A stretch of 64,000 nt of DNA. Origin: Candidatus Bathyarchaeota archaeon. Its GTDB lineage: Archaea; Thermoproteota; Bathyarchaeia; Bathyarchaeales; Bathycorpusculaceae. Under the pieces are notes generated by a model. It made no database searches. It was given only the letters and a program-made list of their open reading frames with translations, and had not been told where the DNA came from. The translations under genes and the position numbers were made by a program. The DNA lies in assembly GCA_029881805.1 (NCBI GenBank), contig JAOULW010000002.1, positions 248,001 to 312,000 on the forward strand, given 5' to 3'. This document shows, piece by piece, positions 34,784-40,068 of the stretch; position 1 is the first letter of the stretch, and every line of letters starts with the position of its first letter.

Positions 34784-36433
34784 CTAAAGCTTGACTGCAC
34801 CAAATACTGCGGGGTTTAGTTCTTTAAATTTCCTTAACCATGCAAGTCTTTCGTTTTTCAATTTGTCAGCGTAAATTTTGATTTGCTCTTTAGTGTAGAA
34901 CTTGGACAGATCAAAGTTTGTCATTTGCAACCCATTGACGTTTTTGGGCACTAAGGTGTCAAAATAGGGGTCTGTTTTCCAATCAACCGAATTTCTGACG
35001 ATTCCCCTTATAATGGCTGCCATCTCAGGTATCTCCACTCGTGTAGCTTGCTTAACGATTTTGTTTCCTTCTTCTCTAACCTCTCCAACCCCACCCGTGT
35101 TGAGAAGGTAACATTGAGTTTTGTCTTTGTGTGTCTTCAGGAAGTCGTAGAACCAGTTTCCTTCGAGGGACTCGTCGCCGACAATGAAGGGGTTGGTTCC
35201 AGTTTCTCTTACCGATTCACCTGCTCTGCTTGGGTCTCCTGCAGAAGTTTCAACCGACTCACCTAACATGAAGGCTGCTGCAGCTTGTTCGATGGTCAAT
35301 TTTGACGCGATAGGTACTACTGTGTTTCGTCTAGTGATGAAGATGATTATCATTTCGTCCAATTCGCTGAGGGGCGGTAGATTTACGCTTTCAGATTTGT
35401 CTGTTCCCAAATCGTCTCTCTGTATTATGGCTCTGCCATTCTCAGTTAAGGTTGTGTCATCGAAGTGTACGTTGCCAAGATAGTCGACCATCACATTCTC
35501 GAAGATCGTGTTGTGGCTTATGGCTGCCCTGAAGATTATGGGCTGTATTTTCGGATTTATATAGCCGGTTTTAAGATAGAAACCTCTTTCAGTTCCTAGT
35601 GCAGAGCCGTCTGGTCTTATGAAAACTACGTCGTCTTGGACGATTTCTTGGCCTTCTCCGTCTTCAAGTAGACCATGGTTGTGGCAGGCATGGGTGGTCT
35701 TGCCTGTTGCGCTCAGTCCAAAGAGAATCATGCCGTATCTTCTAATTCTTCCAGTTCTGTCCTTCGCTTTGATTATCTTCGCTCCGGCATGAACTCCTAG
35801 CATTCCTTTCTGCTTTGCTGTCCACATAGCCATTCGCAGAAATCCTTTCTTTGCTTCTCCGTAGTAGTCTGAACCGAGGACGTAAGTAACTCCAGCCTCA
35901 GGAAAGACAAGAATTTGTCTGTCTTTTTCTTGCCATTCCGGCACGTAAAGGAGATCCAATTCTGGTCCGGGCGTCTTCTTTGACGGGAATAGGGTTTGTC
36001 CAATCATGTAAGCGAGACGTATCATTTCTTTTCTATGCACGGATACGTATAGCGTGCAGTGGGGGTTGAAAAAAGCGTTATCGCCCATCGTTCTTTCAAC
36101 GCATACGACGGGTGTTCCCTCTATGTATCTGTGCACATTTTTCACTGTTTTCGGTGCATTCATGAGAATTTCTTTTTGCCTATGGTTTAGTTCAGATTGA
36201 AGCACCTTTTCGCTTCCAATGTACACTGTTAACCATGCGCTTCGGTTTTTTACCGTTGATACAAAGTTATAGTTGCCATAAACCGTTCGAACGCCATATC
36301 TCTCCGCTGTCTGTTTAAGCTCCTTCGGTGCTGGATGCGCCACATTGTCAGCATTACGTAGGCTTTTCACAGTAGCCAAAACTGTTTGAAGTAGAGTATT
36401 CATATCGTATTCAACGCATTCTTGAATCTGCAT
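34784..36433 (-). CDS. pckA: ATP-dependent phosphoenolpyruvate carboxykinase
   Basis: The 549-residue protein has the PEPCK kinase P-loop LFGLSATGKTTH near residue 242, followed by DGEGQEIVQDDVVF, which holds the metal-binding Asp residues. The protein is the ATP-dependent form rather than the GTP form by its P-loop type. It converts oxaloacetate to PEP for gluconeogenesis. The ATG at 36433 is preceded by GGGGAT. It lies next to asparagine synthetase on the same strand with a 50-base gap, so the two may be cotranscribed. Confidence 0.92.
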   Translation of the reverse strand: MQIQECVEYDMNTLLQTVLATVKSLRNADNVAHPAPKELKQTAERYGVRTVYGNYNFVSTVKNRSAWLTVYIGSEKVLQSELNHRQKEILMNAPKTVKNVHRYIEGTPVVCVERTMGDNAFFNPHCTLYVSVHRKEMIRLAYMIGQTLFPSKKTPGPELDLLYVPEWQEKDRQILVFPEAGVTYVLGSDYYGEAKKGFLRMAMWTAKQKGMLGVHAGAKIIKAKDRTGRIRRYGMILFGLSATGKTTHACHNHGLLEDGEGQEIVQDDVVFIRPDGSALGTERGFYLKTGYINPKIQPIIFRAAISHNTIFENVMVDYLGNVHFDDTTLTENGRAIIQRDDLGTDKSESVNLPPLSELDEMIIIFITRRNTVVPIASKLTIEQAAAAFMLGESVETSAGDPSRAGESVRETGTNPFIVGDESLEGNWFYDFLKTHKDKTQCYLLNTGGVGEVREEGNKIVKQATRVEIPEMAAIIRGIVRNSVDWKTDPYFDTLVPKNVNGLQMTNFDLSKFYTKEQIKIYADKLKNERLAWLRKFKELNPAVFGAVKL

Positions 36434-36483: not shown

Positions 36484-37488
36484 TTATAAATCATAGACCA
36501 ATCCAGGTATCTTAGGAAACGGTTGCGTTTCTCCAACATGTTTGGCTCCCGCTATCCAATTGACTAATCTCTCTATGCCTATTCCTGCGCCGGCAGAAGG
36601 TTTTAGTCTTCTTTCTTTCGCTAACTTCAAAAGCGTTTGATAGTTTTCTTTTCTGATGTTGTCTCTTTCCATTTTTCTCGTTATCTTGTCATATTCATAT
36701 TCTCTTCTGGCACCAGACAGCACTTCTCCATATTTGGGCATCAGTAGATCGTAATTATCCCACTTATTCTGGTCGAAGTCTTCGAAGTCATAGAACTCTC
36801 TGGGAATATTTGTAACCCATATTGGATCACAAGTTTCAAGCATTAGCTGGGTTTCCCAGTTTCTTCCGTATCTTTCTTGGAGTTCTTCTCTGTCATAGGT
36901 TCTGAATGGTATTTCAGGAACTTTCAAACTGTCGTGTCTCTTGAGGTAGATTAGCTCTTTGCGCATTTGTTTTTTTAGGCTGCTTACTAGTCCGCGAAGT
37001 ATTTTTTCAACGAGGCTTTTGATCTCTTTGGAAGTGGCGCTTTTGACTTCGAAATCCAGTTGTGTAAACTCGTAAGCGTGTATTCCGCTGTATGCTCTTT
37101 CTGTTCTTTCGATTCTCACGTTCGGGGATAATATAAACAACTTGGGGTAAGCTAAAGAACAAGCCACAATCTTATGAAGTATCATGCTCAGTGTCGTCCT
37201 GACGGATTTTCCATAAATTTCTACTTCAATCCGTTTCTCTATGGATGCTCTCGGATCTGGCCATAAAGGGTCTGTTGACTTGGAAAATATCACTGGCAGC
37301 AACCATTCGAACTCTTCATTTACGAATTGACAAGTGAGATACTTCAATTCGTAGGTCATTAATCTGCTAATGCATTGTTTTCTTTCTAGTTCGCCTTTGG
37401 AGAGCCGTTCTAGAGGTTTTGGCATTCCCGCTAATCGGTCCCAACTAACTGCCAAACTTTTCTGAACGACTGCTCGTTTCCTGCTCAT
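36484..37488 (-). CDS. asnA: Class II synthetase-like asparagine synthetase A
   Basis: The 334-residue protein is a class II aminoacyl-tRNA synthetase catalytic core without an anticodon-binding domain. Key parts are LSPNVRIERTERAYSG (motif 2-like), QLDFEVK and the motif 3 stretch GAGIGIERLVNWIAG near the C-terminus. It closely resembles archaeal asparagine synthetase (the Pyrococcus AS-AR type), which makes asparagine from aspartate, ATP and ammonia. I choose ATG at 37488 because GGAAGG is placed correctly; the longer frame starts at 37512. It is divergent from an Lrp/AsnC regulator, with a palindrome between them, the same arrangement as E. coli asnC-asnA. Confidence 0.85.
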   Translation of the reverse strand: MSRKRAVVQKSLAVSWDRLAGMPKPLERLSKGELERKQCISRLMTYELKYLTCQFVNEEFEWLLPVIFSKSTDPLWPDPRASIEKRIEVEIYGKSVRTTLSMILHKIVACSLAYPKLFILSPNVRIERTERAYSGIHAYEFTQLDFEVKSATSKEIKSLVEKILRGLVSSLKKQMRKELIYLKRHDSLKVPEIPFRTYDREELQERYGRNWETQLMLETCDPIWVTNIPREFYDFEDFDQNKWDNYDLLMPKYGEVLSGARREYEYDKITRKMERDNIRKENYQTLLKLAKERRLKPSAGAGIGIERLVNWIAGAKHVGETQPFPKIPGLVYDL

Positions 37489-37541
37489 ACATTCGCCTTC
37501 CAACGTAAACATTCTGACTAACGGTCTGCTCCATCCACAGT

Positions 37542-37555
37542 CGAATATGTATTCG
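37542..37555. promoter_or_regulatory. 14-base palindrome between asnA and Lrp/AsnC gene
   Basis: CGAATA, TG, TATTCG is a perfect inverted repeat. The TATA-like AAATTTATAAT for asnA lies just upstream on the minus strand, so a protein bound here would block the asnA start. It is a plausible operator for the adjacent regulator. Confidence 0.5.
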
Positions 37556-37606
37556 TCATTATAAATTTTTTATAAAAAAATATGTTCTTTTTCCAAAAAG
37601 TTAAGC

Positions 37607-37614
37607 TTTTATAT
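37607..37614 (+). promoter_or_regulatory. Putative TATA box for Lrp/AsnC gene
   Basis: TTTTATAT stands 25-32 bases before ATG 37639. That spacing matches an archaeal TATA box with a leaderless transcript start near the ATG. Confidence 0.45.
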
Positions 37615-37638
37615 TTGAATTTATATAAAAATTACAAC

Positions 37639-38145
37639 ATGTCGCCAAAGTTGGATGAAAAAGACCTAGCTATACTGGCATTGCTGCAGAAGAATTGTAG
37701 AACAACTGCAAGGGAGATTGCCCGGAAAATAGATTCGCCAATAACGACAGTATTTGCAAAAATGAAGAGGATGGAGGAACAGGAAATTATTAAGTACTAT
37801 AGAGCCATTCTAGATGCCAGAAAGTTAAATCTTGACACAACCGCCTTCATTTTAGCTTCATTTTCCTACAGAGATGGAGAAAAACCGCTTTCGCAAAGGG
37901 CTATGGCTGAGCAGATTGCGAAATTTCCAGAAGTCCAGGAAGTCCACATAATAACTGGGGATTGGGATCTTTTAATAAAGGTTAAAGCCCAGAATGTTGA
38001 TGCAGTGGGAAGATTTGTTATCGATAAATTAAGGCTTGTTAAAGGAATAGAGAAGACTCTCACCTGCATGGTTTTTGCCACTCAGAAAGAGACAACAGAT
38101 ATCCCTCTGCCCTTAAAAAGACAATTACTAGAGAAAATTCAGTGA
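37639..38145 (+). CDS. Lrp/AsnC family transcription regulator
   Basis: The 168-residue protein has an N-terminal winged helix-turn-helix (LDEKDLAILALLQKN and ARKIDSPITTVFAKMKRMEE) and a C-terminal RAM (alpha/beta) ligand-binding domain with EVHIITGDWDLLIKVKAQN. These sense amino acids in the Lrp/AsnC family. ATG 37639 is chosen because the TATA box sits 25-32 bases upstream; the frame extends to 37582 without a ribosome site. Its divergent partner is asparagine synthetase, so an amino acid such as asparagine or aspartate may be the ligand, by analogy with E. coli AsnC. Confidence 0.9.
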   Translation: MSPKLDEKDLAILALLQKNCRTTAREIARKIDSPITTVFAKMKRMEEQEIIKYYRAILDARKLNLDTTAFILASFSYRDGEKPLSQRAMAEQIAKFPEVQEVHIITGDWDLLIKVKAQNVDAVGRFVIDKLRLVKGIEKTLTCMVFATQKETTDIPLPLKRQLLEKIQ

Positions 38146-38175: not shown

Positions 38176-38604
38176 TCAAAGAGAGCTGGAATAATAAAGT
38201 AATGGTAATGCCAGAAGTACGACGTTCTTCCCTTTTGTTGTGAGGGCATATTCTACTCTTAATGGCGGTCCGATGTCAACTTCTCTCTCAATGTACCCGT
38301 GTTTTTTCAGCATTTTGAGCTTGTCTGATAACGTGCGGGAGTTGACGCTGAGGATTTTCTTGAGTTCGCTGAAACCAGTCGAAGTCTTCAGGAACAACGT
38401 GTATAGTATCTCCAGATTCCATTTTTGGGATAGCAGGATGAAACTTTTCTCTAGACTTTGTATGTCTTCTTTCAAATCTTTCAAGCTTACTTCTTGCTTT
38501 TCCAATGCTTGTATAAGCGTGTCTTCTATTCCTTTAAGAGTATGTTCTATGCGTGTCTCTACGAGTTTGCGGAGTTCATTACTCAGCGTTAACTGTGAAT
38601 CCAT
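38176..38604 (-). CDS. HxlR-like winged-helix transcription regulator
   Basis: The protein has a long coiled N-terminal region (residues 1-60) and an HxlR-type winged helix around SQKWNLEILYTLFLKTSTGF and LSVNSRTLSDKLKMLKKHGY, ending in a wing and GPPLRVEYALTTKGK. I choose ATG 38604 (142 residues) because the minus-strand TATA (CTTTATAAATT, 38643-38650) is too close to an ATG at 38631 but well placed for this one. A 15-base inverted repeat lies at the predicted transcription start. Its divergent neighbour is geranylgeranyl reductase. Confidence 0.8.
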   Translation of the reverse strand: MDSQLTLSNELRKLVETRIEHTLKGIEDTLIQALEKQEVSLKDLKEDIQSLEKSFILLSQKWNLEILYTLFLKTSTGFSELKKILSVNSRTLSDKLKMLKKHGYIEREVDIGPPLRVEYALTTKGKNVVLLALPLLYYSSSL

Positions 38605-38621
38605 TTGCCTACACTTGGTGT

Positions 38622-38636
38622 GAAGTAGCATACTTC
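38622..38636. promoter_or_regulatory. 15-base inverted repeat, candidate HxlR operator
   Basis: GAAGTA, GCA, TACTTC is a perfect inverted repeat immediately upstream of the chosen HxlR-like start and downstream of its TATA box. It is well placed for autorepression. Confidence 0.45.
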
Positions 38637-38706: not shown

Positions 38707-40068
38707 TTGGAAAAGTTTGATGTCGTGGTGGTTGGTGCTGGGACGGCCGGATGCCTAGCCGCAAAAACAACCGCTGAAGCGGGTTTGAAGGTTTGCCTGA
38801 TCGAAAGGAAAAGGAAAGAGGGAATTGGAGAAAAAATCTGCGGAGACGCTCTTGGAGAGCATCACTTGAAGAATTTAGGTTTAGAAAAGCCGCAGGGCGG
38901 CGAATTAGAAAAAAGGATTGAAGGTATTAAGATTTATTCTCCAGATCTGAAGACTGTTTTCACTGTTGAGCATGAAGATTTTGTCGGTTACTTGTTGAAT
39001 AGACGTCTTTTTGGGCAGTGGCTTCTGAAAGAAGCCGTCGATGAAGGCGCTGTTGTTCTTGATTATATGCTGTGTTTGGAGCCTGTCATTGAAAATGGCT
39101 TTGTGGTTGGTGTTCTTGTTAAGGATTTGAAGACGGGTAAGAAGGTTGAGTTAGGCTGTAAAATGGTTATGGATGCTAGTGGTTTTTCGGCGGTAGTTCG
39201 GCGAAAGCTTCCTGAGAAGATGGAAATAGAAGACAAAGTCCCGAATGAGGATGTTGAAGCCTGTTATCGTGAAATAAGGCAGCTTAAACAGGAGACTGAA
39301 GACACAAAGCATTGTGAAATCTATCTGAATCAAAGGATAACTCCTGGAGGTTATACTTGGATTTTTCCGAAGAGTGGAGCAAAAGTCAACGCTGGCTTAG
39401 GAATTTGTATGCGTGGCAAGTTTCCAAATCCCAAGAACCAGTTTTACAAATACATCTTAACTAGGCCTCTTTTTGAGGGTTCACTGCTTCTGAGCGGAGG
39501 CTCTTGGTATGACCCAACACGTAGACCTTTGAACAACATGGTTGGAAATGGAGTTGCAATTCTCGGCGATGCAGCGTGTCTTGTGAACCCGATTCATGGC
39601 GGTGGAATAGGTCCTTCGATGTTGAGCGGCTATCTTGCTGGAAAAACAATAATTGAAGCCTTGGAAAAGAGTGATGTTAGTCAAAAATCCTTGTGGTCTT
39701 ACAACTGCAAATATATGGAAATGTATGGCGCAAAGCAAGCCGGACTTGATGTTTTTCGTATTTTGCTTTTGACAAGTCGTGACGAGGACCTAAACTATGG
39801 AATGGGATATAAACTCTTGACAGATGAAGATGTTTTGAAAGCTGGCTTAGGTGAGGAATTTCATTTGAACATAACTGAAACTGCCAAGCGCGTCTTTCGT
39901 GGGTTGAAGAGAATACGATTCTTGAACAAGCTTAGGCTTACAGTCAACATGATGAAGCAAGTTAAAGCCCATTATGGAAACTATCCTGACGCTCCCGAAG
40001 AATTTAGGAAGTGGAGGATGAGAACAGAGGCCTTGTTTGAAGAGGCTCAGTCAAAACTCATGGAGTAG
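38707..40068 (+). CDS. Geranylgeranyl reductase family FAD protein
   Basis: The 453-residue flavoprotein starts with the dinucleotide motif VVVGAGTAG (residues 7-15). Further family segments are ICGDALGEHHLKNLG, FPKSGAKVNAGLGI and GDAACLVNPIHGGGIGPS, the latter being the flavin-contacting GD motif. The archaeal family saturates geranylgeranyl chains of membrane lipids (digeranylgeranylglycerophospholipid reductase); the substrate of this member is inferred. The start is TTG after a GGTG element. An HxlR-like regulator is divergent. Confidence 0.85.
   Translation: MEKFDVVVVGAGTAGCLAAKTTAEAGLKVCLIERKRKEGIGEKICGDALGEHHLKNLGLEKPQGGELEKRIEGIKIYSPDLKTVFTVEHEDFVGYLLNRRLFGQWLLKEAVDEGAVVLDYMLCLEPVIENGFVVGVLVKDLKTGKKVELGCKMVMDASGFSAVVRRKLPEKMEIEDKVPNEDVEACYREIRQLKQETEDTKHCEIYLNQRITPGGYTWIFPKSGAKVNAGLGICMRGKFPNPKNQFYKYILTRPLFEGSLLLSGGSWYDPTRRPLNNMVGNGVAILGDAACLVNPIHGGGIGPSMLSGYLAGKTIIEALEKSDVSQKSLWSYNCKYMEMYGAKQAGLDVFRILLLTSRDEDLNYGMGYKLLTDEDVLKAGLGEEFHLNITETAKRVFRGLKRIRFLNKLRLTVNMMKQVKAHYGNYPDAPEEFRKWRMRTEALFEEAQSKLME

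Follow-up and report, generated by a model that had tools for sequence, protein, structure and literature searches.

In Escherichia coli, the asnC and asnA genes are divergent, and the AsnA enzyme family is PF03590. The accessible part of one account states that E. coli AsnC activates asnA and represses itself, and that asparagine lowers the activation (PMC8707732). Archaeal Lrp activators are described, in the excerpt available of PMC2995911, as binding just upstream of the BRE, with clusters of sites on one face of the DNA. Ah-BarR, according to the available sections of PMC10201364, represses itself and activates its divergent partner through sites such as TTGTACTTTTTACAA. Among the paper titles and abstract openings searched in the open-licence literature, none was found that describes an Lrp-asnA pair in archaea. 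The locus reported here lies in a 64,000-nucleotide stretch of DNA from Candidatus Bathyarchaeota archaeon (contig JAOULW010000002.1), referred to below as the window. The window genome is 2.2 Mb and 100% complete, and its closest relatives by Lrp mostly carry Bathyarchaeota or Bathyarchaeia names in public records.

Results

Genes of the locus

Four genes of the window are considered here (positions are counted from the first letter of the window):

36484 to 37488, minus strand: asnA, archaeal asparagine synthetase (AS-AR type, class II aminoacyl-tRNA synthetase fold), from NCBIfam and PDB matches
37639 to 38145, plus strand: lrp, Lrp/AsnC-family regulator of 168 aa, with Pfam HTH_24, HTH_AsnC-type and AsnC_trans_reg above their cut-offs
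38176 to 38631, minus strand: HxlR-family HTH gene (Pfam HxlR), downstream of lrp and part of the syntenic backbone
38707 to 40068, plus strand: geranylgeranyl-reductase-family gene (TIGR02032 above cut-off), part of the syntenic backbone

Translation of asnA from the ATG at 37488 gives a protein of 334 aa, and from an in-frame upstream ATG at 37512 one of 342 aa. The protein scores 369.1 bits against NCBIfam NF005054 'asparagine synthetase A' (PRK06462), above the equivalog cut-off of 309, and PF00152 (tRNA-synt_2) is the sole Pfam family matched. The best solved relatives are PDB 1nnh (E=1.7e-76) and 3p8t ('Archaeal asparagine synthetase A', E=1.5e-75). By homology, the window asnA is named an asparagine synthetase, which would make asparagine from aspartate; its match spans residues 39-331 of 334, which leaves little space for an N-terminal tRNA anticodon-binding domain. 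The lrp reading frame is open already from an ATG at 37582, yet conservation begins at the ATG at 37639 when the protein is aligned with 15 orthologues, and this is the start that we use. With 39.4 bits for PF13404 (cut-off 27) and 62.4 bits for PF01037 (cut-off 25), the regulator belongs to the Lrp/AsnC (FFRP) family. It reaches 61.4 bits against the AsnC equivalog model NF008384, whose cut-off is 227, and scores slightly higher against the LysM and Lrp models. The two genes diverge (asnA minus, lrp plus) across a 126-bp intergenic region, with a 73-bp asnA leader. These family matches bear out the first-pass annotation, which had named an asparagine synthetase divergent from an Lrp/AsnC regulator.

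The gene that comes next after asnA on its strand encodes a phosphoenolpyruvate carboxykinase (34784-36433). Locus L005 has a carboxykinase homologue downstream of asnA too; in L172, where asnA is unpaired, a carboxykinase-like frame overlaps it or comes after it, as judged by eye.

The AsnC ligand domain is matched 12 times in the window genome, the window Lrp included, with 11 matches above the cut-off, so another Lrp could in principle bind at the asnA-lrp region. The genome also encodes an AsnRS and an aspartyl-tRNA synthetase that scores best as the non-discriminating type (L188 and L189); given this pair, charging by AsnRS would need free asparagine. In addition, an AsnB-like protein of 484 aa (L176, G000:C37) falls below the NCBIfam asparagine synthase cut-off. 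Its presence means that asnA may not be the sole route to asparagine and that the work may be shared. After the AsnB-like gene comes one that by eye looks deacetylase-like.

Distribution of the asnA-lrp pair

The divergent arrangement is kept across Bathyarchaeia. In public genomes, asnA lies divergently next to relatives of the window Lrp in 71 of 80 loci, these being the loci kept of 121 confirmed. From the enzyme side, 60 relatives were searched and a divergent Lrp was found at 26 of 29 AS-AR-like synthetase loci (L001-L029), the exceptions being L003, L008 and L029, in which asnA is broken. The asnA of L029 (G004), like that of L016 (G025), is split by stops or frame changes, by gene decay or by assembly error.

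After collapsing duplicates, 85 loci with an Lrp orthologue were compared: 49 with a window-like asnA (type-1), 27 with a second kind (type-2), 8 without asnA next to it and 1 that is incomplete (L095). The type-2 count includes L039, which raises the 26 called by script to 27, because tblastn shows its asnA.

Outside the class, we examined the loci of 52 of 65 phylum-level genomes with a matching synthetase. L118 is uninformative, since its sequence stops some 91 bp out from asnA on the upstream side. This leaves 51 loci, and none of these 51 has an Lrp orthologue beside the synthetase; L147 has a weak Lrp match that lacks the AsnC ligand domain. On the strength of these 51 loci, we rejected the idea that the wider phylum had passed the pair on. 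The same-class loci L130 and L134 likewise have no Lrp orthologue beside their synthetase.

Candidate operators and core promoters

The region between the two genes contains the following elements:

37542 to 37555, no strand: palindrome CGAATATGTATTCG, 6-bp arms with a 2-bp spacer, present but not conserved
37559 to 37575, minus strand: asnA core promoter block TTATAAATTTTTTATAA, containing the asnA TATA box
37583 to 37595, no strand: O2, putative second operator, TGTTCTTTTTCCA, 41 bp upstream of O1, a weak copy in the window
37607 to 37613, plus strand: lrp TATA box TTTTATA, between O2 and O1, from an aligned T-rich/TATA block in 16 loci and the column profile
37624 to 37636, no strand: O1, putative operator, TATAAAAATTACA, a one-mismatch copy of TGTAAnnnTTACA that ends 2 bp before the lrp ATG

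The 13-bp O1 consensus TGTAAnnnTTACA is perfect in 47 of the 76 paired loci and occurs within one mismatch in 65, where shuffles predict 1.4; the other 11 have no such site. Every one of the 68 loci that match within two mismatches has the O1 start 13-16 bp before the lrp ATG. The O1 half-sites hold 1.53 bits against 0.15 bits for columns of the asnA leader (21 representatives, Lrps less than about 75% identical), a contrast that is flattered by the use of O1 as alignment anchor. O1 is thus a conserved short pseudo-palindrome over the start of the regulator gene, and a putative Lrp operator. The exact O1 word TGTAATNWTTACA was found in 8 of 10 genomes, each time at the asnA-lrp locus, with one other copy in all ten (G036:C55) and 6 matches for the reversed control pattern; these ten genomes had been chosen for their already known loci. 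Near-uniqueness of this kind fits a local regulator. There is no sign of a wide O1 regulon: the ten genomes have that one extra exact site, and the window genome has 20 places within one mismatch of O1 as compared with 42 for the reversed-pattern control.

When a weight matrix built from 74 O1 sites was used to find the best second site, this lay 40-42 bp upstream of O1 in 52 of the 74 loci, as against at most 1.4 second sites at any single distance in shuffles. The 41-bp placement is the sole distinguishing mark of O2: with 0.66 bits, its columns do not exceed the AT-rich flank (0.71 bits), and the window copy scores -0.7, lower than the TATA block taken as a second site. O2 is therefore supported as a candidate Lrp-type site more weakly, and less securely, than O1. 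Both window copies are weak, O1 having one mismatch and O2 its low score.

For asnA, 56 of 76 loci carry a block within one mismatch of ATAAATTTTTTAT (0.45 expected) and 69 within three, 62 of the latter at 75-80 bp upstream of the lrp ATG. The lrp TATA box is about 25 bp before the ATG, which suggests a near-leaderless lrp mRNA. O2 sits between both TATA boxes, at a distance of 7 bp on the asnA side and about 11 bp on the lrp side; from this position it could equally affect lrp or repress asnA.

A candidate asparagine switch

We consider it rather probable that the locus is a local, self-regulated switch for asparagine synthesis, which follows the logic of E. coli AsnC-asnA and was assembled independently in Bathyarchaeia. 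In the control region that the two genes share, Lrp would bind both 13-bp pseudo-palindromes, which are separated by 41 bp or about four helical turns, and the DNA between O1 and O2 would be wrapped on an Lrp tetramer or octamer. From the positions of the sites we infer two consequences of such binding. At O1, over the lrp transcription and translation start, Lrp would block RNA polymerase and so repress its own gene; at O2, just upstream of the asnA TATA/BRE, it would probably activate asnA. The feedback effector would be asparagine, the natural guess, or a metabolite related to it. The four-turn spacing of O1 and O2 is outside the two or three turns, centre to centre, that are given for archaeal Lrp sites in the available part of PMC2995911.

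Alternatively, Lrp could be purely a repressor, with O1 and O2 in one complex that closes both of the divergent promoters under an ample supply of asparagine (or nitrogen). O2 does lie between both TATA boxes, and a large oligomer could reach the asnA-side promoter block. However, a scan of the 100 bp upstream of O1 gave, past O2, mainly the TATA block as a further Lrp-like site, and among the archaeal Lrps described in the excerpted text of PMC2995911, activators occupy a place just upstream of the BRE. We regard pure repression as unlikely.

A palindrome that is not conserved

The palindrome CGAATATGTATTCG had been proposed in the first-pass annotation as the operator of the pair, lying between the asnA TATA and the asnA start. 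Its location holds true, between the AT-rich asnA TATA block (37559-37575) and the start of the gene. As an operator it is not supported, because it is not conserved, the very result that the annotation had named as refuting the idea. Across Bathyarchaeia, in a comparison in which the window genome stands alone for its genus, none of the 75 other paired loci matches within two mismatches, and we rejected CGAATATGTATTCG as a conserved operator. In terms of the pattern CGAATANNTATTCG, the window is alone among the 76 paired loci within two mismatches and one other locus matches at three, where shuffles give about 4.6 at two to three.

That the repeat exceeds chance was not confirmed. When the 126-bp intergenic region is dinucleotide-shuffled, 52.6% of the shuffles hold some inverted repeat with 6-bp arms and a spacer of 0-8, and 12.2% hold one with a spacer of 2. 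Shuffles of the 73-bp leader alone give 7.4% and 0.8%, respectively, the last being the most favourable figure. Besides CGAATATGTATTCG, the intergenic region contains eight more 6-bp-arm repeats, nearly all AT-rich, and a 6-bp-arm repeat of any kind is present in 5 of 75 orthologous leaders (9.1 expected). The exact CGAATATGTATTCG word occurs once in the window genome and the remaining matches are all at two mismatches; the near copies (9 forward and 11 reverse) are not clearly above the control (10 and 6).

It could still be argued that CGAATATGTATTCG is an operator in the window lineage only, where a bound repressor would block asnA. At some 25 bp from the TATA block, the palindrome overlaps the probable start site of asnA, a position that suits a repressor, and its arms are perfect, with the low frequency in leader shuffles in its favour. 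Set against these points are the missing matches in the other paired loci, the 0.15 bits of the leader beside the anchor-flattered value of the O1 half-sites, the frequency of such repeats in whole-intergenic shuffles and the near copies at about control level. We judge a lineage-only operator to be very improbable. Words like GTACACTGTGCA occur near the asnA start in the leaders of L045, L046, L048 and L052, which belong to one Bathyarchaeia subgroup, and may be a lineage-specific element.

Two synthetase subfamilies in one slot

Type-1 asnA, the window-like form, scores best against NF005054 and type-2 (two tested) against NF005052, both models being named asparagine synthetase A; identity between the two types is about 31-38%. 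The 49 type-1 and 27 type-2 enzymes adjoin the same regulator, promoter and backbone. This backbone consists of an M50 peptidase (a name tested on L036 only), Lrp, HxlR and geranylgeranyl reductase, and it also surrounds the asnA-less loci L033, L049 and L061. The HxlR gene adjoins lrp in many of the 85 loci, and the reductase gene neighbours lrp in type-1, type-2 and asnA-less loci.

The two gene trees place the window differently. Its regulator falls among the Lrps of type-2 loci (support 94/94), as do those of L006 and L014, and its asnA groups with type-1 enzymes (88). L082 has an asnA that clusters with synthetases lacking an Lrp neighbour (94). Exchange between asnA subfamilies has taken place at this slot, leaving the number of exchanges apart. 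As to that number, the Lrps of type-1 loci form a single clade in 0% of 200 bootstrap trees, and the AU test of their monophyly gives p=0.027 with all rows and p=0.067 after dropping three long-branch and nine asnA-less rows, so that repeated enzyme exchange is favoured, not proven. Two enzyme subfamilies beside one regulator constitute a natural experiment, in which the control region and the regulator were kept on replacement and the enzyme was not.

A regulator possibly older than the pair

Lrp orthologues are also present in Asgard archaea (Odinarchaeota/Baldrarchaeota), where O1 is perfect in L095 and L097 and has one mismatch in L078; L097 has an O2-like site at 42 bp. No asnA was seen next door at L078 and L097, and L095 is uninformative in this respect, as its sequence holds just 39 bp upstream. 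All three loci have an elongation factor 2-like gene, identified by eye, next to lrp. Of other asnA-less loci, L033 and L061 keep O1 within one mismatch, and L049 and L093, which count against an operator older than the pair, have no O1 within three. L061 retains an asnA-side TATA block at the lrp promoter, as after recent loss of asnA.

One explanation of such loci is that O1 and O2 serve lrp autoregulation alone, with asnA a syntenic neighbour and not a target. It draws on the Asgard orthologues that keep O1 with no asnA seen beside them, including the O2-like site of L097, and on the O1 copies of L033 and L061. But two asnA subfamilies reached the same divergent slot with the same promoter, and the asnA TATA block is at a fixed distance from lrp, both of which argue against it. 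On balance, autoregulation alone appears quite unlikely.

At one position of the recognition helix, which is Ala40 in the window Lrp, eight Lrps carry Ser and the rest Ala, apart from one with Thr. At the loci of the eight with Ser, 24 of 30 half-sites are of the CGTA type as compared with 12 of 182 elsewhere. The association gives a Fisher p=8.5e-8 with kinship ignored, and two independent supported contrasts, both in the expected direction, give a sign test p=0.5. As a sign that Lrp binds these sites, the covariation is a lead, not proof, and it provides a cheap test of Lrp specificity. We tentatively put forward, at somewhat less than an even chance, a history in which the regulator came first: Lrp with its twin-site operator would predate the asnA pairing, would have taken the synthetase into the divergent slot, and would have swapped subfamilies at least twice while keeping the control region, with Ala or Ser in the recognition helix setting TGTA or CGTA half-sites.

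Discussion

This analysis provides a sequence-level candidate operator, together with its likely regulator, for an uncultured archaeal class. Like E. coli AsnC-asnA, the window pairs an Lrp/AsnC regulator with an asparagine synthetase gene in what appears to be a local role. The parts differ. The window enzyme belongs to PF00152/AS-AR and not to the E. coli AsnA family, the window regulator scores 61 bits where the AsnC equivalog cut-off is 227, and the promoters are archaeal, whereas those of E. coli AsnC-asnA are bacterial. The first-pass annotation had left it undecided whether the shared logic was convergent or inherited. The enzyme family, the low AsnC score, the 51 outside-class loci and the Asgard O1 sites with no asnA seen beside them favour convergence and speak against inheritance, and the resemblance is probably convergent.

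Among archaeal regulators, the FL11 consensus is reportedly TGAAANNNTTTCA. Ss-LrpB has a palindromic, AT-centred site, TTGCAAAATTTGCAA, in the accessible part of PMC4046817, and the putative window sites are likewise palindromic and AT-centred. Ptr2, LysM and Ss-LrpB resemble our model in that they activate from a dimer site immediately upstream of the BRE, as described in the available portion of PMC2995911; unlike the window, they have other targets and a spacing of two or three turns. BarR of the Sulfolobales (for example Ah-BarR) is also an archaeal Lrp-type regulator divergent from one metabolic gene, with several semi-palindromic sites between the promoters, to which O1 and O2 would be the counterparts here. 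In the sections available of PMC10201364, the BarR target is an aminotransferase and the effector beta-alanine, whereas the window partner is asnA, and there are three or more 15-bp sites, with two-turn spacing in Sa- and St-BarR, as opposed to two putative sites 41 bp apart. The inner 13 positions of the Ah-BarR site TTGTACTTTTTACAA given there are one base off the O1 of L017 (TGTAATTTTTACA). The locus would show the AsnC-asnA logic in an archaeon, put together from different components, and would join the known local Lrp/AsnC switches.
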